Positions 370 through 36,056 of a stretch of 38,154 bases of DNA are shown in pieces. Each line of letters opens with the position of its first letter. The stretch's first letter is position 1. The stretch is from a virus, in IMG/VR virus record IMGVR_UViG_3300047550_003675, positions 1 through 38,154 of that record; one strand, given 5' to 3'. The position numbers and the translations under genes were made by a program. The notes beneath the pieces were generated by a model that was given only the letters and a program-made list of their open reading frames with translations, had not been told where the DNA came from and did not search any database.

Positions 370-2496
370 TTATAGTATGCTGCGTTCCATTACTTTGAGT
401 GTGGCTTCGCTGTTGCGAACACGGAGATCGTCGTTGTAGTTGTTCACAACGGTGTTGGATTGATTGTTTACAGTGTTCACAGAAGCCCGCATATTTGACT
501 GTGCCATTGCCTGTGCTTGTCCTTGTGCAGTTTGGGCTTTGGTTTCTTCTACTCCACGACGAGAGGTTTCCATTGCTGCTGCTTGTTGCCCCACAGGAGT
601 TGATGTGGTTGACGCAGGAGAAATGGAGCCTGTCGCTTGTGTTGTGGATTCAGGTGTTGGTGTGGTTCCTTCTACTTTGATTAGATCACCAACGGCAGGA
701 ATAGAAGACACAAAATCGTATATTCCTTTGGGGCCAACAAGGCTTGCAATCTGATCGCCTATCCACTCGCCTCCAAGAGCACCTGCCATTGCTCCCAAAA
801 TTGTTCCAACTGGGCCTATTGCTGTTCCCAATCCTCCGCCAATAATTCCGCCAATAGCAGAACCAAATCGTTTTGCTATCTCTGCTCCGATTGCTTCTTT
901 TTTCTCTTCTGGCCCAAGATTGGGATCGTTTTTTATACCGTAGATGTTGAATGCACCAATTATTCCTTCAATTGCAGAAGTGATTGGGCCAAGAGACTTC
1001 ATTCCTGAAAGAATCTTGCCCATGTTTGATTTTAAAAATATGCTAGGATTGGCTACTGCTTCTGCAATTTGTGCTGCTTCACTGGCAACAGACTTTCCTG
1101 CTTCTATTACAGCACTTCCAGCCGATTTTGCACCTTCCCATCCTTTAGATGCAAGGTTTTTTGTGCCTTCCCACGCACTGCTCCACCACGATTTGCTCTC
1201 TGCTGCTGTTTTAGCCGCACCTTCTGCTGCTCCTCCTCCAAATCCCAACATTGATTTAGTGCCTTGCCACGCTTTTCCTGCAAGACCTTTAGTGCCTTGC
1301 CAAGCCTTTTTGAGTCCCCAATCGGTTGCTTTGTCTGTTGCCCAATCTGCAACACTTGAAAGCATTCCCGGCTGTCCTTCTGCACCGCCTCCTCCACCCA
1401 TTCCAAACATTCCGCCAAGCATTCCAAGCAAACCGCCTCCGCCAAGTAGCCCTGACAAGGTTTTGCCAAGCCCACCAAACAAGCCTTTCTGCTTTTCATC
1501 GCCTTTTGCTGCTGCCACTACATTTTTTAGTGCTTCTTCTTTTTTCTTTAGAGACTCTGTTCCTGATTTTTTACCAACCACTCCGTCTTTGATGGCTCGC
1601 ACATCAGCAGCAATCTGACCAAGCACTCCAACATCACCACCTGCCATGCCAGCCAATCGTCCACCCGCTGCTCCACCCATTATGCTGCCAACAGTTCTTG
1701 CTCCTGGGAATGGAGGAGTTGGTGCTCCTGCTCCACCCATTCCTCTGCCCATCAGGATTCGTTCTAGTTCGTTTTGCTTTCGTCCTGCTTGAGAAATGCT
1801 TTCAACTCTGCGTCCGGCAAAAGCCTCTAGTTCTTCTCGTCCTGCTCGTTTTTCAGCCATGTACTCGCCAAGCAATCCTCCCACAAGAGGAATTTGACGA
1901 ACCACCATTTCTGGAATGGATTTTACTTTTTGTGCCAGTGATTCTTTCACAAAAGCACCGAAACCAGTTTTCTTTTGTAGAACGCCCTCAACTGGTTTGA
2001 TGATTTCTGCTATCTTTTTGGTGATGTCAGATTTTTCACCAGTTGTTTTTTCGGCAGTTTCACGAATAAACTTTAGTTTGTTGTATATGTCTACCTGTTC
2101 TCTTCTATCTTTTGAACGAACTGCTCGTTCAGACAGAGACAGGGCAGACTCAATAACAGCAAAGTTTGCTGCGTTATTAGGATCGTCTAGGTCTTGTAGA
2201 CGCTCTCTTTCACTTCTAACCAATTCTTCAATTTGAGCACGAACGCCTTTTGCTCCACCTTTTCCAAGAACAGCCACAGACAGTTCGGTGTCTCCACCAG
2301 ACAGTTGCCGCTGTTGTTCCAAGAGGGCTTCAAGCAGACCTATTTTTGCGTCAACCGCTGTGTACGCCCTTTCCACTTCTGGTGGAAGCGGCATTTCAGG
2401 TGCAGGTGCAGACGGTGCTGTTTTTGTGGAAGCAAATCGTCCACCTACTCGTGGAACCGAACCCCGCCTTCCCCTACCTGGACCTTTTTTTGCCAT
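370..2496 (-). CDS. Probable tail tape measure / baseplate hub protein (gp29-like role)
   Basis: A 708-residue protein with a very basic, Gly/Arg-rich N-terminus, then a charged, helical, probably coiled-coil region (about residues 40-270). Next come a Gly/Leu/Met-rich stretch (about 340-375), imperfect W-x-G-T-K/A-K repeats (about 395-470), a long glycine-zipper hydrophobic segment (about 543-592) and a Gln/Ala/Ser-rich C-terminus. Long helical proteins with Gly-rich membrane-active segments are typical tape measures, which set tail length and pass into the host envelope on infection. T4 gp29 has 590 residues. The gene starts right after the stop of the frameshift extension of the gp26-family gene (TAAATG junction, AAGGG upstream), the position a tape measure has after its chaperones in lambda-like phages. 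I see no sequence motif that proves gp29 homology; the role is inferred from composition, length and position. Confidence 0.6.
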   Translation of the reverse strand: MAKKGPGRGRRGSVPRVGGRFASTKTAPSAPAPEMPLPPEVERAYTAVDAKIGLLEALLEQQRQLSGGDTELSVAVLGKGGAKGVRAQIEELVRSERERLQDLDDPNNAANFAVIESALSLSERAVRSKDRREQVDIYNKLKFIRETAEKTTGEKSDITKKIAEIIKPVEGVLQKKTGFGAFVKESLAQKVKSIPEMVVRQIPLVGGLLGEYMAEKRAGREELEAFAGRRVESISQAGRKQNELERILMGRGMGGAGAPTPPFPGARTVGSIMGGAAGGRLAGMAGGDVGVLGQIAADVRAIKDGVVGKKSGTESLKKKEEALKNVVAAAKGDEKQKGLFGGLGKTLSGLLGGGGLLGMLGGMFGMGGGGGAEGQPGMLSSVADWATDKATDWGLKKAWQGTKGLAGKAWQGTKSMLGFGGGAAEGAAKTAAESKSWWSSAWEGTKNLASKGWEGAKSAGSAVIEAGKSVASEAAQIAEAVANPSIFLKSNMGKILSGMKSLGPITSAIEGIIGAFNIYGIKNDPNLGPEEKKEAIGAEIAKRFGSAIGGIIGGGLGTAIGPVGTILGAMAGALGGEWIGDQIASLVGPKGIYDFVSSIPAVGDLIKVEGTTPTPESTTQATGSISPASTTSTPVGQQAAAMETSRRGVEETKAQTAQGQAQAMAQSNMRASVNTVNNQSNTVVNNYNDDLRVRNSEATLKVMERSIL

Positions 2497-2685
2497 TTAC
2501 TGATGCCCTTGTCGCTTGGCTCGTTCTTTCTCTTCTTTCAAGAATTGGATCAATAAATTTATGTATACTTCACGCTCCCAAGGTATTAGCCCCTCCACTT
2601 CGGAAAGGGAGTACTTGTGGTGCTGCATTAGTGAAAAATTGGTGTTGTAATACGCTGCCAGCGTGTTATGGCAGACCGTTATTGA
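2497..2685 (-). CDS. -1 frameshift extension of the gp26/51-family protein
   Basis: This frame encodes 62 residues that would be added to the upstream protein if ribosomes slip -1 at the T7 run (2691-2685). The joined product reads ...SDFF then SITVCHNTLAAYYNTNF and continues through HHKYSLSEVEGLIPWER to a Lys/Glu-rich helix, giving about 297 residues in total. The YY-x-x-NF and IPWER-x-x-Y pattern resembles the C-terminal helices of T4-like hub assembly proteins, so this looks like conserved protein, not noise. No good independent start serves the whole segment: an in-frame ATG at 2628 would give only 43 residues and would lose the YYNTNF part. The segment stops immediately before the tape-measure start. 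The alternative is a separate 43-residue gene. Confidence 0.7.
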   Translation of the reverse strand, partial: SITVCHNTLAAYYNTNFSLMQHHKYSLSEVEGLIPWEREVYINLLIQFLKEEKERAKRQGHQ

Positions 2686-2691
2686 AAAAAA
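2655..2691 (-). promoter_or_regulatory. Putative -1 programmed ribosomal frameshift signal
   Basis: Reading the minus strand, the zero-frame codons are GAT TTT TTT CAA TAA. The slippery heptamer T TTT TTT occupies 2691-2685 and fits X XXY YYZ exactly. The zero-frame stop follows one codon later (2681-2679). Ten bases after the heptamer a hairpin can form: CTGCCA (2674-2669), an 8-base loop, and TGGCAG (2660-2655), a perfect 6-bp stem. Heptamer, short spacer, nearby stop and stem-loop are the normal parts of a -1 frameshift site. Confidence 0.7.
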
Positions 2692-3389
2692 TCGGAGACA
2701 GACTTTACCTCCGTTTCCACCAATTTCTTGCACGACGGGCAAGTGTACTTGAAACTGTATACCAGTTCTGGAGTGGTTTTGACGAATTTCATAATCTGTT
2801 CAAACTGCTCGGGCAGCAGGTTATCCACGAAGTCGGTTAGTTCTTTGGGATCAATATCGTCTTTGCTGTACACATTGTCGCCAAAAATAACGCTCTCAAT
2901 ACAATCCTTTGCTATTCCAAAAATGGCATCAATCTCGGTTTTGCTGTAGTCCACATCGTGCATGGACGGATACCGCAGCACCAATGATATCTGGTCGTTG
3001 ATCTTTACTGTGGAGTCTACCGCTTCTTTCTCAACCTTTTTGACTTTGACTTCTTGTAGATTGATTCGTACTCCTGTTTTTTCTTGGCAAGTGGAGCAAG
3101 TGATTTGTGGTTTTACTTCTTCTCCCACAGACTTCATGCGAATCTGTAGAAATGCGTATTCAGAATCCGCTGTGCACAGTTTTTTTGTGTCTAGTAGTCC
3201 GTTGGTGCATGCAGAAATGATATTACGCATAGCATCCACGATCTGGTTCATGTCACCAGACTGTGCAGCAATGAGTAGTACTTTTTCTTCTTTAACCAAA
3301 AATGGTCTGTATTTTGCCACTATGCCAGAAATTGGCAGAGTCATGGTATACGACGGTAATTGCGAAGAGGTCAGTTTCAGTTTTTCCAT
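2679..3389 (-). CDS. gp26: T4-like baseplate hub assembly protein (gp26/gp51 family)
   Basis: A protein of 236 residues in the zero frame. It resembles the T4 baseplate-hub assembly family (gp26/gp51, Pfam T4_baseplate type): LPSYTMTLPISG near the N-terminus, a middle region with YPSMHDVDY, and a C-terminus ending in FF. Two CxxC pairs (about residues 96/99, CSTC, and 217/220, CPSC) could form a zinc ribbon. The frame is open to a TTG at 3404, but the ATG at 3389 is preferred because GGAG lies 6 bases upstream. These proteins help assemble the central hub and are not clearly part of the mature tail. The stop at 2679-2681 is bypassed if the adjacent T7 slippery site works. gp26 and gp51 cannot be told apart by eye. 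Confidence 0.8.
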   Translation of the reverse strand: MEKLKLTSSQLPSYTMTLPISGIVAKYRPFLVKEEKVLLIAAQSGDMNQIVDAMRNIISACTNGLLDTKKLCTADSEYAFLQIRMKSVGEEVKPQITCSTCQEKTGVRINLQEVKVKKVEKEAVDSTVKINDQISLVLRYPSMHDVDYSKTEIDAIFGIAKDCIESVIFGDNVYSKDDIDPKELTDFVDNLLPEQFEQIMKFVKTTPELVYSFKYTCPSCKKLVETEVKSVSDFFQ

Positions 3390-3427: not shown

Positions 3428-4165
3428 TCACTGTTGCCCGTTAATTATTCCGTTCACGGTTCCGTCGCTGCCGTATCGGTTTATTCTTCCTGTTTTTGGA
3501 TTTATACCAACCACTTGTTGTACTCGTTGTTGTACTGGACGAAGTGCTTGTGGCAAGTTTAGACCAAACGGAGAAACCTGTCTTTGAGCAGCAGACAGCG
3601 TGGTTGACGGTGGATTGGGAGCAGATGTGACAGCAGGTGTGTACTTTCTGTACGCAAACACAATGTCCTGTGTCAATATTTCATTATCTTTCTCGTATCC
3701 CAATATGAGTTCGCCTATTTGCTTTGGATACAGTTCTTCAATGGTTGCAGAGTACACCACTTGGTCTGTTTTATCTAAAACATTGATTACACCGTTTGTG
3801 GTGTATTCATCGTAAAACGAGAACTTGTAATTTGACGGATTGCAAATAAAATTTAGCCACTCTTCAAAAAATGCTCGCTCTTTTAGATCGCCTGATAGCA
3901 CATACGATAAGGTCAAGTCTCCAGAGTAGAGAGGCTCGGTTGGAAACTGTCTTTGTGGGCCATAGAATCTGTAGTTCTGCGTGGTTAGTGATCTTCCAGG
4001 AACCGACGCAGAAGTGCATCGCAAGGTTAATTGCTTTTGCGAAGCAGGACGATATCCAAATACTGCGGGAGTATTAAGAACCATCTCAAACCGATTGGCG
4101 TATATCAGGCTGTCCCGATAAATCTCGCTCATCATTTCGTTGATGTTGGATGGAATGTAAGTCAT
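3428..4165 (-). CDS. Tail-tube-fold baseplate protein (gp19/gp54-like tube initiator)
   Basis: A 245-residue protein. Residues about 20-170 look like the T4 gp19 tail-tube family: ANRFEMVLNTP, CTSASVPGRSLTTQNYRFYG, a strand-rich middle with GDLTLSYVLSGDLKERAFFEEW, then CNPSNYKFSFYDEY and YPKQIGELILGYEKDNEI. The C-terminal 70 residues are Pro/Gln-rich and low in complexity. The real tail tube subunit is normally encoded beside the sheath gene, which is not in this window. A tube-fold protein beside hub genes is more likely the initiator ring on which the tube polymerises (the role of gp54 in T4). It starts in an ATGA overlap with the upstream gene, so the two are translationally coupled. Fold assignment is confident, exact role less so. 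Confidence 0.7.
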   Translation of the reverse strand: MTYIPSNINEMMSEIYRDSLIYANRFEMVLNTPAVFGYRPASQKQLTLRCTSASVPGRSLTTQNYRFYGPQRQFPTEPLYSGDLTLSYVLSGDLKERAFFEEWLNFICNPSNYKFSFYDEYTTNGVINVLDKTDQVVYSATIEELYPKQIGELILGYEKDNEILTQDIVFAYRKYTPAVTSAPNPPSTTLSAAQRQVSPFGLNLPQALRPVQQRVQQVVGINPKTGRINRYGSDGTVNGIINGQQ

Positions 4166-33731: not shown

Positions 33732-36056
33732 ATGGGATCATCACTCGTACTAACAGGCGGAGCAGCAACCACCAAGACTCTCAAAGAGTCTATCTCTATA
33801 ACTGGTCACGGAATGACTGTTGGAGATGTGCTTCGCTACGATCCAGCAGGAACAACTCCCAATACACAGTATATTCGGGCACAAGCCAATTCTGCTGCAA
33901 ACGCAGAAGTACTGGGTATTGTGAGTGCAATCACCGACGAAAACACCATTGAACTTGCTTACGGTGGGTATATTGATATTCCCGCTCTGTCTGGTATTTC
34001 ATTCCCTGTACTGTTCCTATCGGGTGTGTGTGCAGGAGGACTCACTTCCAATCCACCCAGTGCTGTGGGACAGATCATCAAGCCTGTAGCGTCCAAGCAC
34101 CCGTCTTTGAACGGATACATTTTGAACAACTACTTGGGCACACAGATTGGCGGCTCGTCCACGGTGGGTATTGACGAGGTGCAGCCTGTGGGCACCATCA
34201 TGCCGTATGCGGGAACTGCTATACCTGATTCGTGGCTGGAGTGCAACGGCAGCACCTATACTGTTGCAGCGTATCCTGAACTGTACTCCAAGATTTGCTA
34301 CACCACAGGCGACAAAGCACCCATCTACGGGCATGTGGTGGAAATTGATTTGAATTCTACGACTCTTGCAGCAACAACATACACGAGTGCAGTGGTTGGT
34401 GATTGGGTATTCATAAAGAATCACAACGGAATCGCTACAGCAAGCGATCCGTCAGCAACCCCTTGGGGAACACAAAACCAAACAGACGCAGACACCGAGC
34501 AAGCAAAGTGGGATATTTACGGCACAATTGTATCAAAGGGAACAAACAGCAGCGGAAACCAAGGATTTGCTGTTCAGACATACGGAAAATGGACACAAAC
34601 TGCTGCTACTCAAGCAACAACAATTACTCGCAGATTCATCATGCCAAATGTGTTTGCGAAAAGTGCTGTTGGAAGTGTGTCTTCTGCGATCAGAGTAATA
34701 AAAGGATCTGATTTCACAAATATAGGAACAGGAAACATCACTAACGCACGAATGATTGCGTACAATGTGCCTGATTTCTCTGGTCGTTTCCCTGTTGGTG
34801 TCATGGATGCCTCAAGTGATTTTGGTGGAGCAGAAGCAGACAATCCGTATATTCATTATAGTGGTCAAGTTGGGCCAATCGCTCTGGGTGCAATGGGTGG
34901 AGAAGACAGGCATCAACTCACCGTGGCTGAAATGCCTGCTCACGACCACACCTATGTGGATTGGGGTGGAACTGCGATTTCTTCTGGTTTTGATTTATCT
35001 ACAATTGCCACTGGACAGTATAGCAATAGCCCTACAAGTTCTGTTGGAAACAACTCCCCCCACAACAACATGCCCCCGTACCTTGCGGTGCGGTACATTA
35101 TCAAAGCCAAGCCGTACACCCGTGCAGCCATTATTGACGGGCTTGACCTGCCGTGGGCTTCCACGCTGGTTCGTGACCTACGCACCCGTGCCATTGGTGG
35201 GTCTAACAGCGATGTGGTTTTCTACACGAATGTTGCGGGTGATAGCGGTTACGGCACTCCTAGAATGTGGTTGGCAAACGGAGGAAAGGTTGGAATAGGA
35301 TACGATCCAAACACCGATAGTGGGCCTCCTTCTACTGATGCCGCAGATTCGTATTATGGAGCAAAACTACACATATACGACAGAGTTGATCGTGAACCTG
35401 TTCCTGCTGGTGTTTCGCTTTCTGCTTCTAGTGTTGTGAGTGGTGCAAGAGCAAACCTGCTTATCGGAGGCGGCGAAGGCCCAAACGCTTCCAACAGCGG
35501 AAGATACCATATGTTCTTTTCGCTAGGCAGAACTGCTGCGTATATTGGTGTGAATAGCAGATTAAGAAATCTGTCGTTTGCTCTGCCAAATCCGTCAAGT
35601 AGTGATCTTGACACCATGATGGAGCGGCTTACAATTACCCCTTCTGGAAATGTGGGGATTGGAACAACTGGGCCAGTTTCCACACTTCAGGTGAATGGCG
35701 TAATCACCACCGCAGGTCTGACTTCAAGTGCGGTCGTGAGTTGTGCTACTGCTCCCACACAAGATCAGCATTTAACAAATAAACTGTATGTAGATGTTAA
35801 AGTAGATGGTAAAGCCCCCATAATGAACGCTAGTACCGGAATATCAATACCGATTGGAGGATATGTTATGGTAAGTGAAAACGCTCCAGGGTCGGGTTCT
35901 GCTACGAATAGTTTGAACAATACTAGAAGTTTATATTTTAGACAACAATATGGAGATTTTTTTACAACCGCCATAGCAGGTACTAGTACTGTTACAGGCA
36001 CATGGAAATGTTGCGGTGGTGGTAATAATCTTACTCTATGGCAAAGAATCTCTTAA
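33732..36056 (+). CDS. Tail fibre with phage collar domain (gp12-like short fibre)
   Basis: A 774-residue protein. Residues 1-140 repeat the module of the preceding fibre (AQANSAANAEVLGIV at about 50). Next comes a phage tail collar domain: VQPVGTIMPYAGTAIPDSWL, ECNGSTYTVAAYPELYSKI (about 154-195). After an insertion, it resumes with FSGRFPVGVMDAS, HQLTVAEMPAHDHTYVDWGG (about 396-415) and NNMPPYLAVRYIIKA. The HDH in the second part matches the H-x-H that binds metal in the T4 gp12 trimer. Later, GNVGIGTTGPVSTLQVNG and LTNKLYVDVKVDG mark the junction to a different 80-residue tip. Likely a receptor-binding short or side fibre. The ATG is preceded only by AGGA further upstream. Confidence 0.8.
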   Translation: MGSSLVLTGGAATTKTLKESISITGHGMTVGDVLRYDPAGTTPNTQYIRAQANSAANAEVLGIVSAITDENTIELAYGGYIDIPALSGISFPVLFLSGVCAGGLTSNPPSAVGQIIKPVASKHPSLNGYILNNYLGTQIGGSSTVGIDEVQPVGTIMPYAGTAIPDSWLECNGSTYTVAAYPELYSKICYTTGDKAPIYGHVVEIDLNSTTLAATTYTSAVVGDWVFIKNHNGIATASDPSATPWGTQNQTDADTEQAKWDIYGTIVSKGTNSSGNQGFAVQTYGKWTQTAATQATTITRRFIMPNVFAKSAVGSVSSAIRVIKGSDFTNIGTGNITNARMIAYNVPDFSGRFPVGVMDASSDFGGAEADNPYIHYSGQVGPIALGAMGGEDRHQLTVAEMPAHDHTYVDWGGTAISSGFDLSTIATGQYSNSPTSSVGNNSPHNNMPPYLAVRYIIKAKPYTRAAIIDGLDLPWASTLVRDLRTRAIGGSNSDVVFYTNVAGDSGYGTPRMWLANGGKVGIGYDPNTDSGPPSTDAADSYYGAKLHIYDRVDREPVPAGVSLSASSVVSGARANLLIGGGEGPNASNSGRYHMFFSLGRTAAYIGVNSRLRNLSFALPNPSSSDLDTMMERLTITPSGNVGIGTTGPVSTLQVNGVITTAGLTSSAVVSCATAPTQDQHLTNKLYVDVKVDGKAPIMNASTGISIPIGGYVMVSENAPGSGSATNSLNNTRSLYFRQQYGDFFTTAIAGTSTVTGTWKCCGGGNNLTLWQRIS

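Follow-up and report, generated by a model that had tools for sequence, protein, structure and literature searches.

Sequence evidence for a programmed −1 frameshift yielding short and long tail assembly chaperones in an uncultured T4-like phage

The 38,154-base virus record analyzed here over its whole length (hereafter the window) carries T4-type tail genes, and its T4-type genes comprise a gp48-like tube cap, baseplate wedge proteins, a gp5-like hub, head closure, and a DNA end protector. One further gene, of the gp26 type, ends in a run of T residues directly ahead of its stop codon, with another frame staying open beyond it. Is this locus read as a single protein, as two separate genes, or as a short and a long form of the same protein? 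Based on sequence comparisons, we hold with high confidence that a programmed −1 frameshift yields a short (236 aa) and a long (297 aa) tail assembly chaperone (Table 1). Specifically, ribosomes translating the gp26-type gene would produce the short form, TAC-N; at T TTT TTT, a fraction of them would slip one base back, bypass the TAA located one codon past the heptamer, and read 62 more codons to produce the long form, TAC-NC, presumably as a minor product. We infer the occurrence of this slip, its frequency, and the roles of its candidate stimulators from sequence.

Table 1 Coordinates of the features discussed, with the evidence behind each assignment
Feature	Position	Strand	Evidence
Short tail assembly chaperone (TAC-N), encoded by the gp26-type gene in the zero frame	2679..3389	−	PF12322 and phrog_150 matches, AlphaFold model
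Slippery heptamer T TTT TTT	2685..2691	−	Sequence; in-phase T TTT TTN common to relatives
−1 frame extension, TAC-C domain	2497..2691	−	phrog_634 and phrog_150 matches, −1 phase, selection, match to C-terminus of T4 gp51
RNA hairpin CTGCCA-8 nt-TGGCAG, probable 3′ stimulator	2655..2674	−	Folding energy
GGAGG element, weak candidate 5′ SD-like stimulator	2708..2712	−	Sequence; enrichment in relatives
708-aa ORF, putative tape measure protein	373..2496	−	Position directly after extension stop
Tail-tube-like gene	3428..4165	−	phrog_45, E 4.8e-35

Two frames and their counterparts in T4

The zero frame runs from an ATG at 3389 to a TAA at 2681–2679 (236 aa plus stop), and its 3′ end reads GAT (2693–2691), TTT (2690–2688), TTT (2687–2685), CAA (2684–2682), TAA. 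The −1 frame is open from the heptamer to a TAA at 2499–2497 and adds 62 residues beyond the two Phe (the extension amounts to 64 codons plus stop if the two slip-site Phe codons are included); joined to TAC-N, it makes a 297-aa fusion. The original prediction had read precisely this layout from the DNA, and its coordinates for the ending, for the heptamer (2691–2685) with a stop one codon on, and for the 62-residue continuation are exact. Across the main ORFs of the window, in-phase T6 sites occur twice in ~12,470 codons, the gp26-type heptamer being one of them, and T7 runs are not rare when counted regardless of phase (7 in the window vs 18 expected). What sets this site beyond chance is therefore its phase, position, homology, and conservation, and not the T7 run itself. 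The second in-phase T TTT TTT heptamer of the main ORFs lies near 35957 in ORF 33732–36056 (+), 99 bases from the 3′ end of this tail-fibre-like gene.

Both frames belong to the same protein family. The zero frame matches PF12322 (T4_baseplate; E 6.9e-59, residues 12–235 on profile positions 2–218 of 219) and phrog_150 (E 1.9e-59, profile positions 7–233 of 282), while the −1 extension matches phrog_634, named “baseplate hub assembly catalyst” (E 8.5e-28), as well as positions 230–277 of phrog_150, the last part of that profile. Since the zero frame covers positions 7–233 and the extension positions 230–277, a single profile holds both frames in tandem. On this same profile, T4 gp26 spans positions 14–235 only and T4 gp51 spans positions 13–280. 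The C-domain profile aligned to T4 gp51 residues 200–244 (hhalign E 5.8e-5; YSLNSISKMIPAER against YSLSEVEGLIPWER), and no match was obtained between this profile and T4 gp26. In T4, genes 26 and 51 are two divergent genes; with gp26 corresponding to the N domain and gp51 to the N plus C domains, T4 thus makes from two genes, and without a frameshift, the same pair of products that frameshifting would make here. This is the comparison with gp26 and gp51 that had originally been suggested as a check: the short product matches T4 gp26 and the fused product T4 gp51. “Hub assembly” is a legacy name; in functional terms, the gene is better called a tail assembly chaperone.

We also compared predicted structures, with the N and C parts modeled apart as separate chains. 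Modeled with AlphaFold (pLDDT 92), the N part had its best solved-structure match in 3fgx, a protein from B. stearothermophilus (Z 7.2). The HK97 tail assembly chaperone 2ob9, on which residues 1–92 of the model superimposed with Z 6.5 (rmsd 3.9, 86/104 aligned), ranked second among 864 aligned PDB chains, ahead of unrelated structures at Z 4.3 and below. With Z-scores of 6.5–7.2, i.e., moderate values, the predicted fold of the short product resembles that of the HK97 chaperone. The model of the C part (pLDDT 82.6) is all helix. Searching PDB sequences with the N and C profiles returned no meaningful match, and none to the solved chaperones.

Conservation of phase, slip site, and extension

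Using tblastn with the N and C parts, we identified 160 loci having both, i.e., 159 IMG/VR loci plus the window, and the C part was in the −1 phase in every one of them. An in-phase T TTT TTN was present at the end of N in 163/163 distinct sequences having both parts, isolates included. Isolates sharing the heptamer and −1 frame include members of Straboviridae that are not of the T4 group (LPCS28, phi-Grn1), of Pootjesviridae (OLIVR5), and of Menderavirus (YB07), along with Vibrio phage D491s, Aeromonas phage G2, and Ochrobactrum phage ORM_20; sequenced Kyanoviridae isolates display the −1 relation as well. A one-base homopolymer change in a single assembly would look alike, and the extension could on that basis be a sequencing error splitting one continuous gene, or else a decaying remnant; the recurrence of the same −1 relation in all these loci and in isolates of four taxa refutes this reading, as does the purifying selection on the extension described below, and we assign it a negligible probability. 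The pattern that the original prediction had set against itself, i.e., a C part that is in every case an independently started gene and an unconserved heptamer, is the opposite of what these relatives display.

The composition of the slip site was examined in 96 representatives sharing <70% identity. All 96 had T as the third base of the codon ahead of the two Phe codons, whichever of Asp, Ser, Asn, Ala, His, or Gly it encoded. All 96 likewise had TTT as the first Phe codon, against a TTC share of 27% among Phe codons in the rest of these genes. At background rates, and assuming independent representatives, the chance of the invariant T is ~1e-21 and that of the invariant TTT ~1e-13. This is the pattern expected for tandem tRNA slippage. 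The second slip-site codon was TTC in 59 representatives, TTT in 34, and TTA (Leu) in three.

These same data bear on transcriptional slippage, in which polymerase slipping on the T7 run would generate mRNAs with an altered number of U residues and hence the same fusion. The T7 run is there, with a terminator-like hairpin just upstream, but 59 of the 96 representatives have T TTT TTC, i.e., T6 then C, which is short for polymerase and a good ribosomal slippery site, and the invariant bases are those on which tandem tRNA slippage depends. With T6C only in most relatives, transcriptional slippage is very unlikely. The terminator-like hairpin itself (CGGAGGTAAAGTCTGTCTCCG, 2693–2713 (−), directly ahead of the T7 run) was rejected as a functional signal, as such hairpins are at chance level (2 found vs 1.6 expected) and this one is broken in two of the relatives, L003 and L004.

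A related gp26 gene in Vibrio phage D493 (3567–3780) has a −1 frame that runs into C-domain-like sequence (...NSLMPWHLMSLV...). Its junction (TCA CTT TTC AAG TAA) has no T TTT TTN heptamer, which counts against the frameshift reading; this phage would either slip at another site or reach the long form by another route.

Evidence that the extension is protein-coding came from its length, sequence, and substitution pattern. It spans 55–72 residues in all 96 representatives and includes a conserved block (consensus FFxIxLSHxSLxNYYxTNFxLMQHHKYSLTELENMIPWEREIYV) that begins at the slip site itself. Close relatives displayed a synonymous excess in the −1 frame that was absent from the other frames, with 19 synonymous vs 2 nonsynonymous changes between L003 and L004 and 6 vs 1 between the window and its relative L001. 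Purifying selection thus acts on the extension as read in the −1 frame.

Cyanophage records annotate a distinct gp51. If gp26 and a small gp51 were separate genes, the latter being translated from its own start or through re-initiation after the gp26 stop, a start codon should be available. In 31/96 representatives, the −1 frame does contain an ATG ahead of the midpoint of the conserved block. However, no ATG, GTG, or TTG precedes this point in 42/96, and a start codon with a Shine–Dalgarno (SD) sequence was found in 1/96 only, the other 95 having none. In the window, the candidate upstream starts are solely a TTG and a GTG within gp26 (−51 and −42, respectively, from the heptamer), neither of which has an SD, in agreement with the earlier view that the extension has no good start of its own. 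Separate genes would, in addition, leave the heptamer and the invariant T ahead of the two Phe codons unexplained. Given the lack of any start codon in 42/96 and the single SD-bearing start, we rejected the separate-gene reading, which retains only a slight probability. Phase, heptamer, selection, start codons, the downstream RNA structure signal, and the T4 comparison instead all point to −1 frameshifting and to the two products, of ~236 and 297 residues, first proposed.

The annotated starts of gp51 vary between relatives and cut the conserved block. Relative to the gp26 stop, “gp51” starts 2 nt downstream in S-PM2, 50 nt in Syn1, and 71 nt in S-CAM3, and is absent from ACG-2014e; in cyanophage records NC_006820, NC_015288, NC_031906, and NC_062736, its start varies or the gene is omitted, apparently for lack of a start proper to the −1 extension. 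More generally, the extension is mostly annotated in GenBank as a separate “gp51” that cuts the conserved block, or omitted. Most of the public “gp51” annotations that we inspected are therefore probably wrong, and −1 frameshifting is most likely the origin of “gp51” in hundreds of marine T4-like phages.

Candidate stimulatory elements

The window has a candidate stimulator on either side of the heptamer. Downstream, the 6-bp hairpin CTGCCA/TGGCAG originally noted 10 bases past the heptamer is present, with arms at 2674–2669 and 2660–2655 and a folding energy of −10.1 kcal/mol (z about −2 vs dinucleotide shuffles). In relatives, the 45 nt directly after the heptamer (+9) had a mean folding z of −0.98 (se 0.16), as compared to −0.4 to +0.16 elsewhere and −0.55 for the overlapping +20 window. 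Among 1,272 helices tested over 90 aligned sequences, the best covarying one sits just 3′ of the heptamer, in the same place as the stem seen here but shifted from it by a single base. No strict conservation of the individual pairs of the hairpin was found over these 90 sequences, pairing being lost in some lineages. The suggested search of relatives for the T-run and the stem thus bore out the heptamer and an enrichment in downstream structure, but not the individual base pairs of the stem. The hairpin that begins 10 nt past the heptamer is a probable stimulator of the slip.

Upstream, an SD-like element (a tetramer, mostly 8–11 nt from the heptamer) was found in 62/96 representatives vs 37.8 (sd 3.9) after synonymous shuffling, and in many relatives such an element, located 8–11 nt from the heptamer, probably aids the slip. 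The GGAGG of the window is separated from its heptamer by about 16 nt, as opposed to 8–11 nt in most relatives carrying the element, which makes its role in this phage doubtful. We tentatively suggest, as not quite an even call, that marine T4-like phages share a composite signal made of T TTT TTY, an internal SD-like element of the dnaX kind, contained in the gp26 LEG codons 8–11 nt upstream, and a position-fixed, sequence-variable hairpin ~10 nt downstream, working on cyanobacterial ribosomes and on those of other marine hosts, the T4 group having replaced this signal by two genes. The 163 distinct sequences constitute, in any case, a large natural set of putative −1 frameshift signals.

Relation to known chaperone systems and neighboring genes

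Short and long tail assembly chaperones are made by −1 frameshifting in lambda (gpG/gpGT), P2 (gpE/E+E′), and HK97 (gp13/gp14), from loci just before the tape measure gene, with G GGA AAG as the lambda slip site. The window locus has the same arrangement as lambda G/GT, i.e., a predicted short and long form ahead of a putative tape measure gene, with T TTT TTT in place of G GGA AAG. Its protein has no sequence match to the solved chaperones, and its N domain, for all the predicted resemblance in fold to 2ob9, is about twice the length of the HK97 chain and carries Cys pairs of the kind usual in zinc ribbons. By analogy with lambda G/GT and HK97 gp13/14, the two forms would act as chaperones, coating the product of the putative tape measure gene that follows and recruiting the tail tube protein during tail assembly. 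This would tie the classical T4 genes 26 and 51 to lambda-type tail assembly chaperones.

The ATG of the 708-aa ORF, at 2496, immediately follows the TAA of the extension, and a long ORF lies directly 3′ of the extension in 66 of the 88 relatives having enough sequence. No relatives of the 708-aa protein were detected by tblastn against the phage collection, and its assignment as a putative tape measure protein hence rests on position; in Vibrio phage phi-Grn1, the gene in the equivalent position matches tape measure phrog_58 (E 7e-10). Just upstream of the gp26-type gene, the tail-tube-like gene is a usual neighbor at such loci.

Among T4-like phages, Vladimirov, Gautam, and Davidson reportedly found in 2022 that frameshifting is conserved in several groups and that T4 itself uses genes 26 and 51. 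Their study (Virology 2022, 566:9–15) is cited in PMC10885494 for T4-like phages in which a short and a long chaperone gene take the place of frameshifting, and in PMC12846349 for −1 frameshift signals of the poly-T type in T4-like TAC-N genes. The original prediction had been unaware of frameshifting as a standard feature of this T4-type family; going by these two citing papers, it had already been described there, for the same 26/51 gene family. The window phage is another, uncultured T4-like phage, and its frameshifted chaperone is, on the same sources, not new in kind. Possible additions to that 2022 study, as known here through the papers citing it, are the SD-like element enriched upstream of the heptamer and the downstream hairpin with its fixed position. 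A similar logic applies to the TAC locus of Vandenendeviridae and Andersonviridae, which has a conserved GTTTTT and is mis-annotated as two genes (PMC12846349): the poly-T slip site and the two-gene mis-annotation are alike, in other phage families, the likeness being one of locus logic.

Two CxxC pairs occur in the gp26-type protein (2682–3389 (−)), at residues about 98–101 and 217–220, with weak zinc-ribbon matches. In T4, gp26 seems to carry both pairs and gp51 the first, and they are possibly a zinc-binding portion of the chaperone N domain.
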